A model generated the notes under the pieces. That model saw nothing but the letters and a program-made list of their open reading frames with translations. It did no database searches and was not told where the DNA came from. From assembly GCA_026984415.1 (NCBI GenBank), contig JALSSE010000445.1, forward strand, positions 1 through 6,683: a DNA stretch of 6,683 bases. The letters run 5' to 3'. The position numbers were made by a program, and so were the translations under genes. This stretch comes from Hydrogenothermaceae bacterium (lineage in GTDB: Bacteria; Aquificota; Aquificae; Hydrogenothermales; Hydrogenothermaceae). Shown here piece by piece: positions 1-6,683 of this stretch (its first letter is position 1; every line of letters begins with the position of its first letter).

Positions 1-305
1 TGGAAACAAGAGAAAGTTTTAGATGGAGAGGAATAGGAGATATTCCTTATTCAGCCTTAAAACTCAAAGACGAATATTCAGAGCTTGATGCAGAAAAGGT
101 TTTTGCTGATATACTACCAAATGAACCTATTGACGACCATAAATTGTGTATATGCGGAGATATCTTAAAAGGAGTAGCAAAACCTTTTGAGTGTAAAGTA
201 TTTGGAACTGCCTGCACCCCCCAAAATCCTCTTGGCTCATGTATGGTTTCCTCAGAGGGAGCATGTGCAGCATATTATAAGTATGGAAAATTAGAGTTAG
301 TTTAA
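1..305 (+). CDS. hypD: HypD, hydrogenase maturation protein (C-terminal part)
   Basis: The frame is open from the first full codon at base 3 to TAA at 303-305 and gives the last 100 residues. HypD is the iron-sulfur scaffold that, with HypC, holds the iron while HypE-derived cyanide and CO are attached for the [NiFe]-hydrogenase centre in the cytoplasm. The fragment has the family's typical tail: FRWRGIGDIPYSALKL near the start, then a cysteine-rich block with cysteines at fragment residues 49, 51, 64, 71, 80 and 88, including the stretches LCICGDILKG and GTACTPQNPLGSC. In the family, part of this block binds the [4Fe-4S] cluster. The hypE gene 1.3 kb downstream on the same strand supports the call. 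The start lies before the window. Only 4 nt separate its stop from the next gene, so that gene is probably on the same transcript. Confidence 0.95.
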   Translation, partial: ETRESFRWRGIGDIPYSALKLKDEYSELDAEKVFADILPNEPIDDHKLCICGDILKGVAKPFECKVFGTACTPQNPLGSCMVSSEGACAAYYKYGKLELV

Positions 306-309
306 AGGT

Positions 310-681
310 ATGATTAAGGAACCACAGATAAAAAAGTATTCTAAAGAAGACTATATAAACATGATTGGAAAAGAGATAGAAAAAGTGGTTGGAGATAACT
401 GCCTTATTATATTTTTTGGCTCTATTCTCTCTGATAAATTCGGCCGAACGTCAGATATAGATGTTGCCCTGTACTGCAAAGAAAAACTGTCAGACAAAAA
501 ATTTTTGGAAATTATAAACAATTTAGATAATCTTCCCATACTGAGGGAGATTGATATTGTAGATATAAAAAGGTTAAAAAATACTAAACTGCTAAAAAAT
601 ATATTAAAGGGAAGAGTATGGAAAAATATTCCAGAGCTTTTGAGAGATTTAGAAAGTCATATAAAAAATTTAGAGAAATAA
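310..681 (+). CDS. mntA: MNT-domain nucleotidyltransferase, MntA-type antitoxin
   Basis: This 123-residue protein is a minimal nucleotidyltransferase. The catalytic signature GSX10DXD is intact: G37-S38, then D49 and D51 in GRTSDIDVAL. A likely third metal-binding aspartate is D82 in REIDIVDI. In studied MNT/HEPN pairs, this enzyme adds AMP to the HEPN toxin and so silences it. The next gene is the HEPN partner, overlapping by 64 nt in another frame, which supports that role. The ATG at 310 follows the hypD stop by 4 nt. The only Shine-Dalgarno-like bases, AAAGG at 304-308, are almost adjacent to the ATG, so initiation may be weak or coupled to hypD. An in-frame ATG at 361 (residue 18) is a possible later start that keeps the motif. 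Composition is AT-rich: one sampled 60-base line had 14 G+C, against 22-25 in sampled hypE lines. Confidence 0.87.
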   Translation: MIKEPQIKKYSKEDYINMIGKEIEKVVGDNCLIIFFGSILSDKFGRTSDIDVALYCKEKLSDKKFLEIINNLDNLPILREIDIVDIKRLKNTKLLKNILKGRVWKNIPELLRDLESHIKNLEK

Positions 682-1031
682 TAGAAAATCCCCTTTTTCC
701 AGAGATTTTTAAAGAAGAGTTTATTATTGAGATAACAACAAAGAGATTTGAATATACTTATAAATCTATGTGGAAAACAGTAAAAGAGTTTTTGAGATTA
801 AGAGGCATTGAGTGCAATTCCCCCAAATCCTGTTTTAGAGAGCTGTTAAAAGAAGGAATAATTCCTGAAGATTTTGAAGAAACTCTTGCTAATATGGTCT
901 TTTTGAGAAATACATTAGTTCATGTTTACGATGAAAAACAGGCAAAAGAAATTTATGAAAAACTTAAATCAAAAAGTATATTGAAAACATTTGAAACAGT
1001 TATTAATTCTTTAGAAAGTGAGAAACCTTAA
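618..1031 (+). CDS. hepT: HEPN-type toxin, HI0074/HepT-like (nucleotidyltransferase substrate-binding family)
   Basis: This is a 137-residue, mainly helical protein. The block RFEYTYKSMWKTVKEFL (residues 43-59) and the following SPKSCFRELLKEGII (68-82) match the HI0074-like nucleotidyltransferase substrate-binding family, which has a HEPN fold. The RNase motif is seen as R97-N-T-L-V-H102-V-Y104, that is RX4HXY. In the characterised HepT/MntA pair, the Arg and His are needed for RNA cleavage and the Tyr is the AMPylated residue, so both the toxic and the silencing positions are present. The ATG at 618 has a good Shine-Dalgarno, AAGGGA at 607-612, 5 nt upstream. It lies inside the MNT gene, giving a 64-nt overlap. 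The N-terminal helix before residue 43 is normal for the family, so the overlap looks genuine. Toxicity is inferred, not shown. Confidence 0.85.
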   Translation: MEKYSRAFERFRKSYKKFREIIENPLFPEIFKEEFIIEITTKRFEYTYKSMWKTVKEFLRLRGIECNSPKSCFRELLKEGIIPEDFEETLANMVFLRNTLVHVYDEKQAKEIYEKLKSKSILKTFETVINSLESEKP

Positions 1032-1041
1032 GGAGTAAAAA

Positions 1042-1209
1042 ATGGGAAAGATAATCATTGAGTTAGAAGAAGACATAAATATGAAAATTAAAGCAAAAAC
1101 CCTGCAGGAAGCCATTAAGAAAATACAGGAAAAAGAAAAAAAACTGTCAGCAGTTAAGCTTAAAACTAAAAATTTTAAATTTGATAGGGAAGAAGCTGAA
1201 AAAAGATGA
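1042..1209 (+). CDS. vapB: Small VapB-like antitoxin (55 residues)
   Basis: A short gene starts at ATG 1042 and stops at TGA 1207-1209. It encodes 55 residues beginning MGKIIIELEED and ending FDREEAEKR. A strong Shine-Dalgarno, AAGGAGT at 1030-1036, sits 5 nt upstream. The stop overlaps the ATG of the following PIN toxin gene as ATGA (1206-1209), the classic antitoxin-toxin junction. The protein is charged and lysine-rich. It starts with a short strand-like segment and ends in a helical tail that could wrap around the toxin. I do not see a clear AbrB, RHH or PHD motif, so the DNA-binding class is unknown. The antitoxin call rests on size, position and coupling to the toxin. It is easily missed because of its length. 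Confidence 0.8.
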   Translation: MGKIIIELEEDINMKIKAKTLQEAIKKIQEKEKKLSAVKLKTKNFKFDREEAEKR

Positions 1210-1613
1210 AAAAAGTTTTTATAGATACAAATGTTTTAATTTATGCTTACTCAGAAGATGAGCCTAATAAAAGCAAATTAGCAAACAAGATAATTTTTTC
1301 CAATAAATCTATAATATCTACACAAGTTATAAACGAGCTTTCTAATATTCTGTACAAAAAATTTAATCTAACTGCACCTCTAATATTAAAACTCATAGAT
1401 GAATTAGAAGAAAACCTTGAAATTGTAAATTTCAGCATAAACACAATAAAATTAGCCCATAATATAAAAGAAAAGTATAAATACAGCTATTACGACAGCT
1501 TAATCATTGCTGCAGCTTTGGAAAATAATTGTTTAATTTTATATTCAGAAGACATGCAACATAATCAGACAATAGAAAACCAGTTAAAAATCATAAATCC
1601 ATTTAAAAAATGA
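1206..1613 (+). CDS. vapC: PIN-domain ribonuclease toxin, VapC family
   Basis: This 135-residue protein is a single PIN domain, the normal length for VapC. The acidic metal-binding residues are at their usual places: D7 in FIDTNVLIYAY, E44 in STQVINELSNIL, D97 in YSYYDSLIIAAAL, and D116 (with E115) in LYSEDMQHNQ. All four expected sites are filled, so the nuclease looks intact. VapC toxins cleave tRNA or rRNA and are held inactive by their VapB. The start ATG overlaps the antitoxin stop by 4 nt, and no close Shine-Dalgarno is seen, so translation probably depends on coupling to vapB. The TGA stop at 1611-1613 is part of the hypE ribosome-binding region. The gene is very AT-rich; two sampled 60-base lines had 13 and 17 G+C. 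Confidence 0.93.
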   Translation: MKKVFIDTNVLIYAYSEDEPNKSKLANKIIFSNKSIISTQVINELSNILYKKFNLTAPLILKLIDELEENLEIVNFSINTIKLAHNIKEKYKYSYYDSLIIAAALENNCLILYSEDMQHNQTIENQLKIINPFKK

Positions 1614-1618
1614 GGTGG
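1612..1618 (+). promoter_or_regulatory. hypE ribosome-binding site overlapping the vapC stop
   Basis: GAGGTGG here includes the last two bases of the vapC stop codon TGA and places its core GAGGT 4 nt before ATG 1621. This decides the hypE start in favour of 1621 over the in-frame GTG at 1615, which would lie inside the site and has no Shine-Dalgarno of its own. The arrangement suggests that ribosomes finishing vapC help start hypE. Confidence 0.7.
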
Positions 1619-1620
1619 CC

Positions 1621-2616
1621 ATGAAACAGATACTCTTATCCCACGGTGGTGGTGGAGAAGAAACACAAAAACTGATAAAAGAGCTGTTCTTTAAGCATTT
1701 TTCCAATCCTATCTTAGAAAAAATGGAAGATGCAGCTGTTTTTGAAACAAACTCTAAACTTGCCTTTACAACAGATAGTTTTACAGTTTCACCAATATTT
1801 TTTAAAGGTGGAGACATTGGAAAGCTTGCCATTGCCGGAACAGTTAACGACCTTTCGATGATGGGAGCAAAGCCTAAATATCTGAGCTGTTCATTTATCA
1901 TAGAGGAAGGACTACCATTTGAAGATTTAGAAAGGATAGTCAGTTCAATGGCAAAAGAGATGAAAAAATCTGGCGTCCAGATAGTTACAGGAGATACCAA
2001 AGTAGTCCCAAAAGGCTCAGCAGACAGGATTTTTATAAACACAACAGGAATAGGAGAGATTATTTACGAGGGAATTTCAGCCCACAACATACAGGAAGGA
2101 GATGTAATAATCACCTCTGGAACGATAGGAGACCACGGAGCCTGCATAATGGCACAAAGGGAAGGAATAGAGCTTGAAGGTATAACATCAGACTGTGAAA
2201 CTCTCTGGCCGTTAGTGGAAACACTGATAAAAGAAAAAATAACAATAAAAGCAATGAGAGACCCTACAAGAGGAGGACTGTCAGCAGTTTTAAACGAATG
2301 GGCAGAGCAGTCAAATATCGGAATAGAAGTAGAAGAGGAAAACATACCAGTAAAAGATGAAGTTCAGGGACTTTGTGAACTTTTAGGACTTGAGCCCTAC
2401 ACCCTCGCAAACGAGGGAAAACTGATAATAGCTGTTCCACAAGAAGAGGCAGAAAAAATACTGTCTGTTATGAAAAACCATCCTTTAGGAAAAGATGCTC
2501 AGATTATAGGAAAAGCAGTGTCTGATTACACAGGAAAAGTAATCCTAAAATCCCCATACGGCTCAAAAAGAGTAATGGAACCACCAGCAGGAGAGCTCCT
2601 GCCAAGGATATGTTAA
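1621..2616 (+). CDS. hypE: HypE, carbamoyl dehydratase of [NiFe]-hydrogenase maturation
   Basis: This is a complete 331-residue HypE, the usual family length. HypE takes the carbamoyl group delivered by HypF onto its C-terminal cysteine and dehydrates it with ATP to a thiocyanate, which supplies the cyanide ligands through HypC-HypD. Visible signatures are the N-terminal SHGGGG (residues 7-12), FTTDSFTVSP (49-58), GTVNDLSMMGAKP (73-85), VTGDTKVVPKG (122-132) and DPTRGGL (214-220), all typical of the AIRS/PurM-like ATP-binding fold. It ends in PPAGELLPRIC, with the essential terminal Cys331 present. It probably once followed hypD directly; four TA genes now separate them. Sampled lines had 22-25 G+C per 60 bases, higher than the TA genes before it. 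A GTG at 1615 would add only two residues. Confidence 0.97.
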   Translation: MKQILLSHGGGGEETQKLIKELFFKHFSNPILEKMEDAAVFETNSKLAFTTDSFTVSPIFFKGGDIGKLAIAGTVNDLSMMGAKPKYLSCSFIIEEGLPFEDLERIVSSMAKEMKKSGVQIVTGDTKVVPKGSADRIFINTTGIGEIIYEGISAHNIQEGDVIITSGTIGDHGACIMAQREGIELEGITSDCETLWPLVETLIKEKITIKAMRDPTRGGLSAVLNEWAEQSNIGIEVEEENIPVKDEVQGLCELLGLEPYTLANEGKLIIAVPQEEAEKILSVMKNHPLGKDAQIIGKAVSDYTGKVILKSPYGSKRVMEPPAGELLPRIC

Positions 2617-2622
2617 GGTAAA

Positions 2623-2659
2623 TTGACAAATCCTAATAAAGTATTACATTTACTATAGT
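2623..2659 (+). promoter_or_regulatory. Likely promoter of the vapBC-helicase operon
   Basis: A perfect -35 consensus TTGACA lies at 2623-2628, just after the hypE stop. The spacing to a -10 box is not ideal for a single reading. TACATT at 2645-2650 gives a 16-nt spacer with 4 of 6 matches. TATAGT at 2654-2659 has 5 of 6 matches but a 25-nt spacer. Either box falls inside the inverted repeat described separately. This is the only gap of this size between plus-strand genes in the window, so a promoter is expected here. Confidence 0.55.
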
Positions 2660-2668
2660 GTAATACTT
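2639..2668 (+). promoter_or_regulatory. Perfect inverted repeat, probable VapB operator
   Basis: The arms AAGTATTACA (2639-2648) and TGTAATACTT (2659-2668) are exact reverse complements, separated by the 10-nt centre TTTACTATAG. It sits 17 nt before the start of an AbrB-fold antitoxin gene and covers both candidate -10 boxes. VapB antitoxins of this class commonly repress their own promoter by binding such palindromes as dimers, so an autoregulatory operator is the best reading. It could instead act as a weak hairpin behind hypE, but the stem is AT-rich and is followed by CTTACATG and not a T-run, so a terminator is less likely. Confidence 0.7.
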
Positions 2669-2685
2669 CTTACATGAGGTAAGAT

Positions 2686-2925
2686 ATGTACATAACAAAG
2701 ATGACAAAAAAAGGACAGATAACTATTCCTGCCAAATACAGAAAAAAATTGAATGTAGAATACTTCTCTGTAGAAATGAAAGACAACCAGCTTATCATAA
2801 AACCTGTTAAACCCTTGGCAGGAAGTTTAAAAAAATATGCTAAAAAGAGCAAGAATATAGAAAAAATAATAAAAGAAGAAAAAAATAGTTTTGTAGAGGC
2901 TTTAGTTGAAAAGCATAGTAGCTGA
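2686..2925 (+). CDS. vapB: AbrB/MazE-fold antitoxin, VapB family
   Basis: This 79-residue protein has an N-terminal swapped-hairpin AbrB DNA-binding domain (about residues 1-43). The hallmark is TKKGQITIPAKYRKKL at 7-22, followed by the strand NQLIIKPV. The remaining lysine/glutamate-rich tail is the probable toxin-wrapping part. The ATG at 2686 has the Shine-Dalgarno GAGGT at 2676-2680, 5 nt upstream. The gene lies directly behind a palindromic operator, fitting autoregulation, and overlaps the following PIN toxin gene by 20 nt. It is unrelated in sequence to the 55-residue antitoxin at 1042, so this is a separate module and not a duplicate. Confidence 0.92.
   Translation: MYITKMTKKGQITIPAKYRKKLNVEYFSVEMKDNQLIIKPVKPLAGSLKKYAKKSKNIEKIIKEEKNSFVEALVEKHSS
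2896..2899 (+). promoter_or_regulatory. Ribosome-binding site inside vapB that sets the vapC TTG start
   Basis: GAGG lies 6 nt before TTG 2906, within the antitoxin coding sequence. The codon just upstream in the toxin frame is TAG (2903-2905), so no earlier start is possible. No ATG follows before the conserved PIN N-terminus. TTG at 2906 is therefore the only reasonable start. Confidence 0.65.
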
Positions 2926-3295
2926 TGCAAATGTCATTTTAAGATATCTACTTGCAGATAATGATAATTTTTTTGAAAAATCCAAAAATCTTTTTGACAA
3001 AGCCCTAAATGGAGAGGTTGATATTTTTATTAAAGAAATTGTTATAGCCGAAGTAGTTTATGTATTAGAAAGAGTTTACAAAGTTCAAAGGGAAAAAATC
3101 TCCGAAACATTAGAAAACTTAATATCCTTGAAAGGAATTAAAGCTGAAAATAGAGATTACCTGTTAAAAGCATTTAAAATATACAAAAGCAAAAAATTAG
3201 ACTTTGTTGATTGTGTATTGTGTTCCATGGCTGAGGATTACAAAATAGAAACTTTTGATAAAGAACTAAACAGATGCATTGACAAAAATGACTGA
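2906..3295 (+). CDS. vapC: PIN-domain ribonuclease toxin, VapC family (TTG start)
   Basis: This 129-residue PIN protein starts at TTG. Its acidic sites are D7 in IVADANVILRYLL, E49 in IVIAEVVYVLERVYKV, D102 in KLDFVDCVL (with D99 close by) and D118 in ETFDKEL. The usual Thr after the first Asp is Ala (DAN); this is common in this VapC subgroup, and Asn9 is kept, so the site looks intact. It differs clearly from the PIN protein at 1206. The gene overlaps vapB by 20 nt. Its TGA (3293-3295) overlaps the following helicase ATG at 3288 by 8 nt, tying toxin and helicase into one operon. The rare start codon probably keeps toxin below antitoxin in amount. Confidence 0.92.
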   Translation: MKSIVADANVILRYLLADNDNFFEKSKNLFDKALNGEVDIFIKEIVIAEVVYVLERVYKVQREKISETLENLISLKGIKAENRDYLLKAFKIYKSKKLDFVDCVLCSMAEDYKIETFDKELNRCIDKND

Positions 3296-6200
3296 TAGAA
3301 CATTTTTTACAAACGAAGAAGGTCAAAGCCTTTTAGACAGATTTAAAGACCTGATAGATAGTGACACAAAAGCCTTTGATGTTTTAGTAGGATACTTTAA
3401 TATCTCAGGTTTTCATCTCCTTTCAGATGTTTTAGAAAATGTGGAAAATATAAGAATATTAGTTGGAATGGGAATTGATAGAAAAACTGCTGAAGCTGTA
3501 AATCAGCTAAATTTAGAGTTTGACAAGCCAAAGCTTATAAAAGAAAAAACAGAAGAAAAAATAATAGATGAGTTAAACAACTCGCAGGACAGCTATGATG
3601 TAGAAAAAGGAATAAAAAAATTTATAAAATGGCTCAAAGAAGGGAAAATCCAGATAAAAGCATACCCAGAGCCACTTCACGCAAAGGTTTACATTCTTTC
3701 TTTTGACAGCAAGAGGGACGCTGGAAGAGTTATAACAGGTTCTTCAAACTTTACACAGGCAGGCCTAAAAGGAAATTTAGAGTTTAATGTGGAACTAAAA
3801 AACTATTCTGATTATCAGTTTGCATTAGAAAAATTTAATCAGCTCTGGGAAAAAGCAGTAGATATAAACGAAAAAGTTATTGAAACTGTAAGCAATAAAA
3901 CATGGATTTCAGAGAACATAACCCCTTATATGCTCTATCTTAAGTTTCTATACGAATACTTCAAAGAAGAGTTAGACGACGATAAAAAACATGACTTTTT
4001 CAGACTTCCCTATAACTTTATAGAGCTTCAATATCAAAAAGATGCAGTTGTAGACGCAGAAAAAAAATTAAAAAGGTATGGTGGTGTCATAATAGCTGAT
4101 GTTGTTGGGCTTGGAAAAACATTTATATCAGCCCTTCTTATGAAAAAATTAGGGGGAAAGAATTTAGTTATTACACCGCCAAAACTTGTAGATAACTGGA
4201 AATCTGTTCTTTTTGATTTTGGAGTCCCAGCAGAAGTTGTATCTTCTGGTATTTTAAATTACGAAAGTTCAGACTACAAAAGACTTTTAGATATGGATTT
4301 TGATTATATTTATGTTGATGAAGCCCACCAGTTTAGAAATGAAGATACCCAGAGATACGATGCTTTAAAGAATCTGTGTGTTGGTAAAAAAGTTGTGTTA
4401 ATTACAGCTACACCTTATAACAATAAACCTTTAGACATTTTATCTTTGCTCAAACTGTTCCAAAATCCACGGAACAGCGATTTTATAAATCCAAAGGTTA
4501 AAAATTTAGAAGAGTATTTCAAAAAACTTGATAAAAAAATAAGAGATGCAAGGGAAAAGCCTAATTATAAAGAAGTTGTCAGAGAAGTTGCAGATGATAT
4601 AAGGGAAAACGTTTTAAAATACATTATTATAAGAAGGACAAGAAAAGAAATTCAGGAGTTTTATAGGGAGGATTTGGAGAAAAATCATCTTTCATTCCCA
4701 AAGGTCAACTCCCCAAAGCCTATATTTTACCAGTTAGACGAAGATTTGGAAAAACTGTTTGACGAAACAGTGGAGATAATTACAAAAAAACTAACCTATG
4801 CCAGATATAAACCACTTTTATATAAAAAAGGCAGTATAGAGAGTTTTATTGAAGAATCACAGCAAAACCTTGCAGGTTTTATGAAAGCAATTCTTATAAA
4901 AAGATTAGAAAGCAGTTTTGAAGCCTTTAAAAACACATTAAACAATATAATCACAGGTTATCAGCTTTTTATTGATTTTTACGATGAAGGATACATATAT
5001 TTCAGTAAAAAACATTTCCACAAAATTAAAGAATATATAGAAAAAGAAGATTTTGAAGCAGTAGAGAAACTTATAGAAGAAGGAAAAGCTGAAAAGATAC
5101 CAGCTTCCCAGTTTAAAAAATCACTAAAAAAAGATTTAGACAATGATTTAGAGATATTGAAGGAATTAAAGCAGAAATGGGATTTAATAAAATACGACCC
5201 AAAGATAGAAAAACTCCAGGAGCTACTAAAAAATCTAAAAGGTAAAACAATCCTGTTCACAGAAGCAGAAAAAACGGCAGATTATCTATATGAAAATCTA
5301 AAAGATACCTTTAGAGTCTTTAAATTTACAGGAAATTCATCAAGGGCAGACATAGAAACAGTCAGGAACAATTTTGATGCAAATGTTAAAGAAGAAAATC
5401 AAGAAAATGATTACGACATATTAATAACAACCGATGTTCTATCAGAAGGGGTTAACCTACATAGAAGCAACAAAGTTATAAACTACGATATACCGTGGAA
5501 CCCTGTAAGACTTATCCAGAGGATAGGAAGGGTCAATAGAGTAGGAACAAAGTTTGATGAAATTTTTATTTACAACTTCTTCCCGACACATAAGGCAGAA
5601 AGTGAGATAGAGCTAAAAAAAATTGCGGAGATGAAAATGCACGCAATCATCCAGATGCTTGGTTCAGATGCAAAATTCTTAACAGAAGAGGAAGAGATAA
5701 ATTCCCATCAACTATTTGAGATGGTAAATTCTGCACAGCTTTTAGAAGGAGAAGAGAAAACAGGAGAAGAATTAAAATATCTGCAGGAAATCAGGAAAAT
5801 AAGAGATACAGACCCACAGCTTTTAGATGAAATTAAAAAAATCCCAAAAAAATCACGGGTGGCAAGGAAAAAGCAAAACAACACAAGATTTATAACTTTT
5901 ATAAAAAAGGAAGACCTGAAAAAAATATTTTTTATAGATGATGCAGAAGTTGTTCAGGAACTACCATTTGAAAAAGCAGTAAAAATATTTAAAGCAAAGC
6001 AGGAAGAAAAACCTTCAAAAATTCCACCACAGTTTTATGATTATCTTAATCTTTCAAAAGAAGAGTTTGAAAATGTTAGAGAGATAAGAACTTCTCCGAA
6101 AGGGACGGAAAAGGAGTTAATTATGCTTATCAATCAATTAAGAAGTTCTCGACCAACAGCATGGAAATCAGAAGAGATACAGTTCTTTAAAGAAGTAGTG

Positions 6201-6407
6201 GAAATATTAAAAAACGGGCAACTTCCTAAATACAGAATGAAACTAATAAAAAAATCCATAGAAATAGAAATCAAAAAAAGAAGATATAAAGAAGCCTTTG
6301 AAAATTTAAAACAGCTTATTCCTGAAAGCTACATAAGTCAGATAAAACAAAAAAGAGAAAAGCGATACTCTCCAACAGAAATTATACTTTCGGAAATATT
6401 TGTTTAA
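3288..6407 (+). CDS. PLD-family nuclease domain fused to SNF2-type helicase, putative defence protein
   Basis: A protein of about 1039 residues. An N-terminal PLD-type phosphodiesterase domain (roughly 5-190) carries H131-x-K133 (LHAKVYIL) and GSSNFTQAG (151-159), with N154 and E165. The helicase core has motif I GLGKT (274-278), Ia VITPPKLVDNW, motif II DEAH (344-347), motif III ITATP (372-376), motif IV ILFTEAEKTADYL, motif V ITTDVLSEGVNL and motif VI QRIGRVNR (744-751), all apparently intact. About 270 charged, helical residues separate the two RecA lobes, and about 270 more follow the core. Such fusions are often found in restriction-like or defence loci; the DNA target and role here are inferred. 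ATG 3288 overlaps vapC by 8 nt and has no clear Shine-Dalgarno, so coupling is likely. An in-frame TTG at 3279 would add three residues. No methyltransferase lies in the same operon. Confidence 0.9.
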   Translation: MTDRTFFTNEEGQSLLDRFKDLIDSDTKAFDVLVGYFNISGFHLLSDVLENVENIRILVGMGIDRKTAEAVNQLNLEFDKPKLIKEKTEEKIIDELNNSQDSYDVEKGIKKFIKWLKEGKIQIKAYPEPLHAKVYILSFDSKRDAGRVITGSSNFTQAGLKGNLEFNVELKNYSDYQFALEKFNQLWEKAVDINEKVIETVSNKTWISENITPYMLYLKFLYEYFKEELDDDKKHDFFRLPYNFIELQYQKDAVVDAEKKLKRYGGVIIADVVGLGKTFISALLMKKLGGKNLVITPPKLVDNWKSVLFDFGVPAEVVSSGILNYESSDYKRLLDMDFDYIYVDEAHQFRNEDTQRYDALKNLCVGKKVVLITATPYNNKPLDILSLLKLFQNPRNSDFINPKVKNLEEYFKKLDKKIRDAREKPNYKEVVREVADDIRENVLKYIIIRRTRKEIQEFYREDLEKNHLSFPKVNSPKPIFYQLDEDLEKLFDETVEIITKKLTYARYKPLLYKKGSIESFIEESQQNLAGFMKAILIKRLESSFEAFKNTLNNIITGYQLFIDFYDEGYIYFSKKHFHKIKEYIEKEDFEAVEKLIEEGKAEKIPASQFKKSLKKDLDNDLEILKELKQKWDLIKYDPKIEKLQELLKNLKGKTILFTEAEKTADYLYENLKDTFRVFKFTGNSSRADIETVRNNFDANVKEENQENDYDILITTDVLSEGVNLHRSNKVINYDIPWNPVRLIQRIGRVNRVGTKFDEIFIYNFFPTHKAESEIELKKIAEMKMHAIIQMLGSDAKFLTEEEEINSHQLFEMVNSAQLLEGEEKTGEELKYLQEIRKIRDTDPQLLDEIKKIPKKSRVARKKQNNTRFITFIKKEDLKKIFFIDDAEVVQELPFEKAVKIFKAKQEEKPSKIPPQFYDYLNLSKEEFENVREIRTSPKGTEKELIMLINQLRSSRPTAWKSEEIQFFKEVVEILKNGQLPKYRMKLIKKSIEIEIKKRRYKEAFENLKQLIPESYISQIKQKREKRYSPTEIILSEIFV

Positions 6408-6430
6408 GATTGCTCTACAAGCAATTTTTT
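6406..6430 (+). terminator. Rho-independent terminator after the helicase gene
   Basis: ATTGCT (6409-6414) and AGCAAT (6420-6425) form a perfect 6-bp stem with the 5-nt loop CTACA, followed by a run of six T (6425-6430). A G-U pair and two A-U pairs can extend the stem to 6406-6428. It begins at the helicase stop codon and closes the vapB-vapC-helicase operon. Read on the minus strand, the hairpin lacks a following T-run, so it seems to serve the plus strand only. Confidence 0.82.
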
Positions 6431-6465
6431 CATCTTTCTACTTGGATTATGGTATGCCTGCCATC

Positions 6466-6683
6466 TCAATGATAATCTACAGTGGCAACATCATAGATAT
6501 CACCACTTTCAAATCTAAAAATAATCATGTATTGGTCATTTATTCTTATACTGTAATATCCTTTTAAATCTCCTTTAAGAGCTTCAAGTTTATTAGCTGG
6601 GGGAATTTTCAAATCCTCTAATGAATTAGCCCTTCTTAACATCTCCAGTTTTTTACAGCCCTTTTCCATGAAACTTTTAATCA
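6466..6683 (-). CDS. higB: HigB/RelE-family toxin, short form, N-terminus at window edge
   Basis: The conserved core is clear: LRRANSLEDLKIPPANKLEAL, then KGDLKGYYSIRINDQY, and the C-terminus DVATVDYH. HigB toxins are ribosome-dependent mRNA interferases. The frame stays open to the window end, and the residues before Met 6669 read I-K-S-F, the usual family start after Met. The last two bases, read on the minus strand, are TG, so the true ATG probably begins one base outside the window. That gives about 72 residues against roughly 90 for the family; about 20 residues between IKSF and KKLEML are missing. The common NDQYR/NDQWR arginine is Met here (NDQYMIIF). No antitoxin gene follows at the usual downstream place. 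The protein may be inactive or an unusual short variant. Confidence 0.8.
   Translation of the reverse strand, partial: IKSFMEKGCKKLEMLRRANSLEDLKIPPANKLEALKGDLKGYYSIRINDQYMIIFRFESGDIYDVATVDYH

Follow-up and report, generated by a model that had tools for sequence, protein, structure and literature searches.

A PLD-Swi2/Snf2 protein beside a vapBC module in a Hydrogenothermaceae bacterium: a probable restriction subunit of a cassette with a methyltransferase partner

Among described defence systems, the PADLOC entry HKD+Snf2 (C3a139) places a protein with an HKD (PLD) nuclease domain and a Snf2 helicase beside a type IIG-like methyltransferase. In the Type-2 BREX-related (BR) loci, the HKD domain lies N-terminal to a Swi2/Snf2 helicase, with an N6-methyltransferase alongside (PMC12839542). 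SauUSI, a type IV enzyme (PDB 7clg), joins a PLD nuclease to an ATP-driven translocase. Here we analyse a contig of a Hydrogenothermaceae bacterium (JALSSE010000445.1, positions 1 to 6,683, referred to throughout as the window), in which the gene for a 1039-residue protein with the same pair of domains, here called HelA (3288..6407, + strand, ATG start), directly follows a toxin-antitoxin (TA) pair consisting of vapB2 (2686..2925, +) and vapC2 (2906..3295, +, TTG start). The initial annotation had taken these three genes as a self-contained defence unit with no self-marking gene. The relatives of HelA lead to a different reading, which we consider probable, namely that HelA is the restriction subunit of a two-part cassette with a type IIG-like methyltransferase, and that vapB2C2 is a TA module situated at the junction between hypE and HelA.

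HelA and its described counterparts

The three domains of HelA are recognised by Pfam as PLDc_2 (E 2e-11), SNF2-rel_dom (E 3e-11) and Helicase_C (E 8.5e-21), and the best PADLOC match is C3a139 (E 1e-46, 158 bits). An alignment shows the invariant PLD residues and the helicase motifs to be present; in its numbering, which begins at residue 2 of the ORF, H130 belongs to the PLD domain and K276 to the Walker motif. The predicted model and its fold match agree with a PLD nuclease plus a Swi2/Snf2 helicase, SauUSI (7clg) being among the best structural matches. By its domains and motifs, the third protein is predicted to be an intact PLD nuclease plus Swi2/Snf2 translocase, and the earlier description of a restriction-like PLD and SNF2 protein is therefore borne out. 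HelA scores 172 bits against the NCBIfam model phospholipD_antiphage (NF042964), below the cut-off of 1100. Persephonella sp. is the source of the named helicase and VapC2 homologues (P0002, P0123), and the window accordingly comes, in all probability, from a Persephonella-like bacterium. The three closest full-length homologues of HelA are 63-74% identical and are on short contigs, and the relatives found in plasmid and phage records (586 and 28 records) are all below 60% identity.

Mokosh type II has PLD fused to an SF1-type helicase. An SF1, Mokosh-type identity was rejected for HelA, whose helicase is of the SF2 Swi2/Snf2 type, and the distinction from Mokosh type II drawn in the initial annotation holds. 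The same is true of the distinction from DISARM: the DrmD protein of that system is a SNF2-type helicase with an ATPase core related to that of HelA, but HelA reaches only 149 and 78 bits against the DrmD-type equivalog models, whose cut-offs are 610 and 950. The drmA, drmB and DISARM methyltransferase genes are not in the window; the relatives were not searched for them one by one.

Compared with the PADLOC HKD+Snf2 cassette, the window adds an upstream vapBC and has no partner within it. SauUSI differs in being a single-gene enzyme that recognises a methylated target (PMC7913695). The BR loci carry a DUF499 ATPase, a DUF1156-type methyltransferase and DUF3780 (Type-2), whereas the methyltransferases scanned from HelA relatives are of the Eco57I type. 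Neither DUF499 nor DUF3780 appeared in the lists of the 25 commonest families drawn up for 53 open reading frames (ORFs) between helicase and methyltransferase, 112 upstream ORFs and 12 long neighbouring ORFs (the last set picked by eye, with two being methyltransferase-like), and DUF1156 was found in none of seven scanned downstream proteins of relatives. HKD plus SF2 helicases are also described in PbeABCD (PMC10853773). Toxins and guard modules are described at other defence loci: BREX loci hold PIN and HEPN RNases as back-up (PMC12839542), restriction operons hold HEPN toxins (PMC3710099), and CreTA is reported as a TA guard of CRISPR-Cas (PMC10097628, PMC9458426). A keyword search of the literature found no description of vapBC with a HelA-type helicase.

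The methyltransferase partner and the right end of the window

A total of 110 helicase loci were surveyed, 80 from species genomes and 30 from the phylum of the Aquificaceae genome G001 (among them, L081 is the same place as L077). Using a profile built from six downstream proteins, a methyltransferase was found one to four genes downstream of the helicase in all 53 loci whose flank extends for 3 kb or more, in 61 of the 62 with 1.5 kb, and in 85 of the 88 with 0.8 kb. It lies on the helicase's own strand in every one of the 89 loci where it was found, and in the 53 loci it starts no more than 2.1 kb after the helicase. Six of the seven downstream proteins scanned are of the Eco57I type, four of these with a TaqI_C specificity domain, and the seventh, a short piece, gave no match. 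The partner in locus L030 matches the PADLOC type IIG model REase_MTase_IIG (PDLC03596) with 788 bits.

Because a methyltransferase is downstream in nearly all of the relatives, HelA most likely supplies the restriction function of a widespread cassette linked to modification. The initial annotation had itself named homologues with a methyltransferase operon as evidence against a self-contained system, and the 53 loci out of 53 are of exactly this kind; neither 'self-contained' nor the lack of a self-marking gene is supported. The window contains no methyltransferase gene, but it covers only 276 bases past the helicase stop codon, and the missing gene probably reflects this early end. The habit of the relatives points to a plus-strand methyltransferase, expected within about 2.1 kb of the helicase.

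What the 276 bases do contain is a hairpin followed by a T run (6409..6431, +, hairpin 6409-6425), and then two pieces on the minus strand. The hairpin was found by script and is not in the terminator list of the tool used; the intrinsic terminator previously described there is present as a structure, but a weak one, having only two G-C pairs. What is probably left of a higA antitoxin gene, a piece of its 3' end, lies at 6425..6463 (-). The terminal part of higA in G068 (locus L176) matches this 39-base stretch at 77%, and although the match alone has an E of 0.11, it is collinear with the match to higB and adjacent to it. The higB-type toxin gene (6466..6681, -; PF05015, E 6e-19) is open at the window edge, and in alignments its 5' part is out of frame relative to G068 and G103. 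With higA apparently reduced to a remnant, the higBA pair looks decayed, and HigB was rejected as a working TA partner. The place and direction of higB relative to hypE are those of higBA in G068, in which a methyltransferase is encoded on the strand of higB, some 1.7 kb further on. A 33-base probe from near the right end of the window had no match in viral contigs.

The vapB2C2 module and its neighbours

VapB2 and VapC2 have the features of a VapBC type II TA. VapC2 is a PIN toxin (PF01850, E 4e-14) with its conserved acidic residues intact (D7, D18, E49, D99, D102 and D118, positions at which no fewer than 98% of 122 aligned PIN proteins carry an acidic residue), and upstream of it is an antitoxin of a DNA-binding family, the AbrB/MazE type (PF04014, E 4e-7; TIGR01439, 37.3 bits, above the cut-off of 28.3). 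The two genes overlap by 20 nt (2906-2925), and an operator-like palindrome precedes them. What sets the unit apart from a plain VapBC is the restriction-like helicase gene that comes third and overlaps vapC2 by 8 nt (3288-3295). The positions, both overlaps and the palindrome given previously were all confirmed on re-reading the sequence, and the co-directional three-gene unit with overlapping junctions is supported.

The palindrome is an inverted repeat at 2639..2668, with 10-bp arms and a 10-nt spacer. It was missed by a repeat search at the default minimum length of 12 and was found by script; an arm of 10 bp was reached in 14 of 2000 dinucleotide shuffles of the gap. Its core, GTATTAC-N12-GTAATAC (N14 in G094), is found in six of seven vapB2 loci, counting the window, two of the six being identical there, and is lacking from the vapB2 locus of G072. 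The core stays with vapBC whatever gene comes next, and since it does so even where no helicase follows, it is most simply predicted to be the operator of the TA module. A promoter-like site, TTGACA-16-TACATT (2623..2650, +), is the best of 23 given by a motif search of the window, where 24.9 are expected by chance, so that sites of this class are not above chance. The helicase starts inside vapC2 and has no evident ribosome-binding site of its own, and for this reason the control of the helicase by VapBC through the operator, as originally suggested, remains compatible with the gene arrangement, but such control may be incidental.

How often TA genes accompany the helicase was examined across the 110 loci. 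For the upstream tally, co-directional ORFs no longer than 500 aa were chained across distances of up to 300 bases, which gave 111 ORFs in 59 loci; the other 51 had no such ORF, 12 longer ORFs were dropped, and the divergent helicase of G068 described below is not among the surveyed loci. PIN matches were found in 2 of 112 ORFs (these 111 plus VapC2 of the window), one of the two being the window's own. A VapC2-type PIN profile, which leans towards the subfamily of VapC2 itself, found a PIN ORF in one of the 110 loci, on the other strand and 3.3 kb away. Recurrent vapBC beside helicase homologues, which the initial annotation had expected of a dedicated system, is thus rare in the loci surveyed (PIN in 1 of the 111 upstream ORFs of relatives), and the order varies inside the one group where linkage was seen. 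The vapBC pair is not a conserved part of the helicase cassette. Between helicase and methyltransferase, the 53 ORFs (from 38 loci) include AlbA_2 Schlafen (8), Bro-N (5), Fic (4), ParE (3) and RHH_3 (3), with HigB, TumE, NTP_transf and HepT-like once each: TA genes are recurrent guests there, of no fixed kind. Small gene pairs lie in this position in L089 and L093, ParE-like in both and with RHH too in L093, and L094 has small ORFs of the same sizes, not scanned individually.

The closest relatives show how the module and the helicase have fared. In G081, the hypE gene is 94% identical and hypD-vapB1-vapC1-hypE are arranged as in the window, while the stretch with the MNT and HEPN genes (window 312-1027) and everything past 2628 are absent from this place. 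In place of vapB2C2-HelA there is a two-gene pair, read as RHH-PIN and not scanned individually; the genome gave no helicase match at 1e-40 and no VapC2 match at 1e-5. What is left in G094 is the operator, a vapB2 that has been shortened, and the ends of vapC2 and HelA, which were in part identified by eye; the junction between these two, with the same overlap, is still legible by eye. After the HelA end piece comes an RHH-PIN pair (2986-3900 of locus L145), placed immediately 5' of the first part of a different PLD-domain gene, close to where the contig stops. On contig C3 of G068 the order is both ends of a HelA-type gene, operator, vapB2, shortened vapC2 and a divergent PLD-SNF2 helicase (36%), followed by UPF0175-DUF3368, an Eco57I methyltransferase, an HD protein, MNT and higBA, which face hypE. 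This locus (L176, 1440-11872) is thus a restriction cassette interleaved with TA parts (vapBC, UPF0175-DUF3368, MNT and HigBA). Contigs C7 of G087 and C125 of G068, similar and counted as one event, have HelA end pieces, an intact vapB2C2, methyltransferase end pieces and then a 659-aa ORF, which in G087 is an OLD-family nuclease. G065 has kept vapB2 and lost the middle of vapC2, and no helicase was found in the 18 kb read. The module therefore precedes HelA in the window and in G094, follows what remains of HelA in G068 and G087, and on C3 of G068 precedes the divergent helicase. In L211, L212, L176 and L145, helicase and methyltransferase genes are left as end pieces with the middle gone, and in L145 and L214 the same is seen for vapC2; all of these sit beside an intact or partly intact TA module.

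The hyp operon served as a control. In the window it consists of the C-terminal part of hypD (3..305, +; PF01924, E 1.5e-38; its 5' end is beyond the window), an antitoxin-like MNT nucleotidyltransferase (310..681, +; PF18765, E 7e-13), a HEPN/NTase-substrate-binding protein (618..1031, +; PF08780, E 1e-17; PF01934, E 4e-10), a 55-aa vapB1-like antitoxin (1042..1209, +), the PIN toxin vapC1 (1206..1613, +; PF01850, E 2e-15) and hypE (1621..2616, +; TIGR02124, 496.5 bits, cut-off 251.6). The vapB1-like ORF had no match of its own to a TA family in the Pfam scan of the window proteins, and is 96% identical to the ORF upstream of vapC1 in G081. Across 21 hyp loci, 46 small co-directional ORFs were found between hypD and hypE or up to 1.5 kb after hypE; 41 of these were scanned, and 16 of the 41 match PIN. 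Others match RHH, VAPB and Phd antitoxins and MNT and HEPN parts, and six are true HypA. Tight junctions between TA genes and their neighbours are a habit of these genomes, and since TA genes are common at hyp junctions, such junctions do not by themselves show a functional pairing. Operons studded with TA genes in this way are seen at 310-1613 of the window and in L158, L129, L160, L162, L163, L168, L173, L176 and L180, and compared with G081 the window has gained its MNT-HEPN pair as an insert of some 700 bases. In G096 (L178) a different helicase, of 1117 aa (27% identity over part), directly follows hypE, and the junction downstream of hypE may be a hotspot for defence genes.

Function of HelA and role of the TA module

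The mechanism that we propose is as follows. HelA would use ATP to translocate on DNA and would carry a PLD nuclease at its N-terminus, and its partner would be an Eco57I-type, type IIG-like adenine methyltransferase that would recognise and mark the target. The methyltransferase complex would recruit HelA to unmarked sites, where HelA would move along the DNA and cut it with its PLD domain; without its partner HelA would be harmless. Family and anatomy make it highly probable that HelA translocates and cuts unmarked DNA in such a complex, and the methyltransferase belonging to this copy should be encoded beyond the right edge of the window or at another place in the genome. The vapB2C2 pair would be a type II TA with its own operator, lodged at the hypE/HelA junction much as TA modules are at other operon junctions. 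By its position it would probably co-transcribe HelA and couple HelA translation to that of vapC2; that it represses its own operator and in this way sets the expression and translation of HelA has about an even chance of being correct. Its main effect would be to keep its own neighbourhood, toxin being freed if the locus is lost, rather than a dedicated regulatory or back-up role, though that the module actually holds the locus in place is rather doubtful.

The original proposal, that VapBC controls the helicase of a self-contained defence unit through the operator or serves it as a back-up toxin, draws on the overlapping genes, the single palindrome and a helicase without an evident ribosome-binding site, and also on the junction still legible in the decayed G094 copy, the vapB2 and shortened vapC2 directly upstream of the family's divergent helicase on C3 of G068, and the RHH-PIN pair upstream of another PLD-domain protein in G094. 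We consider it unlikely, given the methyltransferase downstream in the 53 relatives with enough flank and also on C3 of G068, the single PIN match among upstream ORFs, the related vapBC behind HelA remnants in G068 and G087, and a palindrome kept where no helicase follows. Equally improbable is a guard arrangement like that of PrrC beside EcoprrI, in which VapC2 would be inactive while the cassette works and be released when a phage inhibits or removes it. Precedents are PrrC (PMC2610378) and the back-up RNases of BREX loci (PMC12839542), and the TA-type genes between helicase and methyltransferase (ParE, RHH_3, HigB, TumE, NTP_transf, HepT-like) and those interleaved around both on C3 of G068 would suit it; yet the identity and position of the TA differ between loci, TAs of this kind are also found in the hyp operon, and G087 and C125 of G068 have kept an intact vapBC next to cassette genes that have decayed. 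As for HelA acting alone as a modification-dependent, SauUSI-like type IV nuclease with no need of a methyltransferase, the structural match to 7clg and a window without a methyltransferase would fit, but the regular pairing in the relatives makes this very unlikely.

Several observations weigh against a modification-linked HelA with a TA module merely lodged beside it. Five of the seven closest vapB2 loci (the window, G094, G068 C3, G068 C125 and G087) adjoin HelA-type genes or remnants, as a raw count, which makes a functional link conceivable, and the shortened vapC2 directly upstream of the divergent helicase in G068 belongs here too. The window itself shows no methyltransferase in its 276 bases past the helicase, and the closest HelA homologues are on contigs too short to show neighbours. 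HelA is followed by a minus-strand higB, whereas the methyltransferase of relatives shares the helicase strand (89 of 89). The order in G068 might point to a minus-strand methyltransferase to the right of the window, perhaps that of another cassette, and if this order holds, HelA could be displaced or orphaned. Addiction, in turn, is inferred from deletion patterns in a few, partly related genomes.

The idea of a new, self-contained defence system made of a TA and a helicase is tempting, but the analysis corrects it: HelA is a member of a modification-linked family that is very common, and its TA is like many others that these bacteria have at operon junctions. We also put forward, tentatively, that in Persephonella-like bacteria the TA modules between the genes of restriction cassettes are locus-specific locks, the loss of which harms the cell, and that the TA operator sets the expression of the cassette for as long as it is whole. 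The flanking nuclease and methyltransferase would then decay separately, by internal deletions that keep the ends, while the TA or at least the antitoxin stays. If this is true, these bacteria would be a natural system in which deletion scars reveal TA addiction to a defence locus, and the decayed loci would be a direct genomic test of the long-debated idea that TA modules hold restriction cassettes in place.

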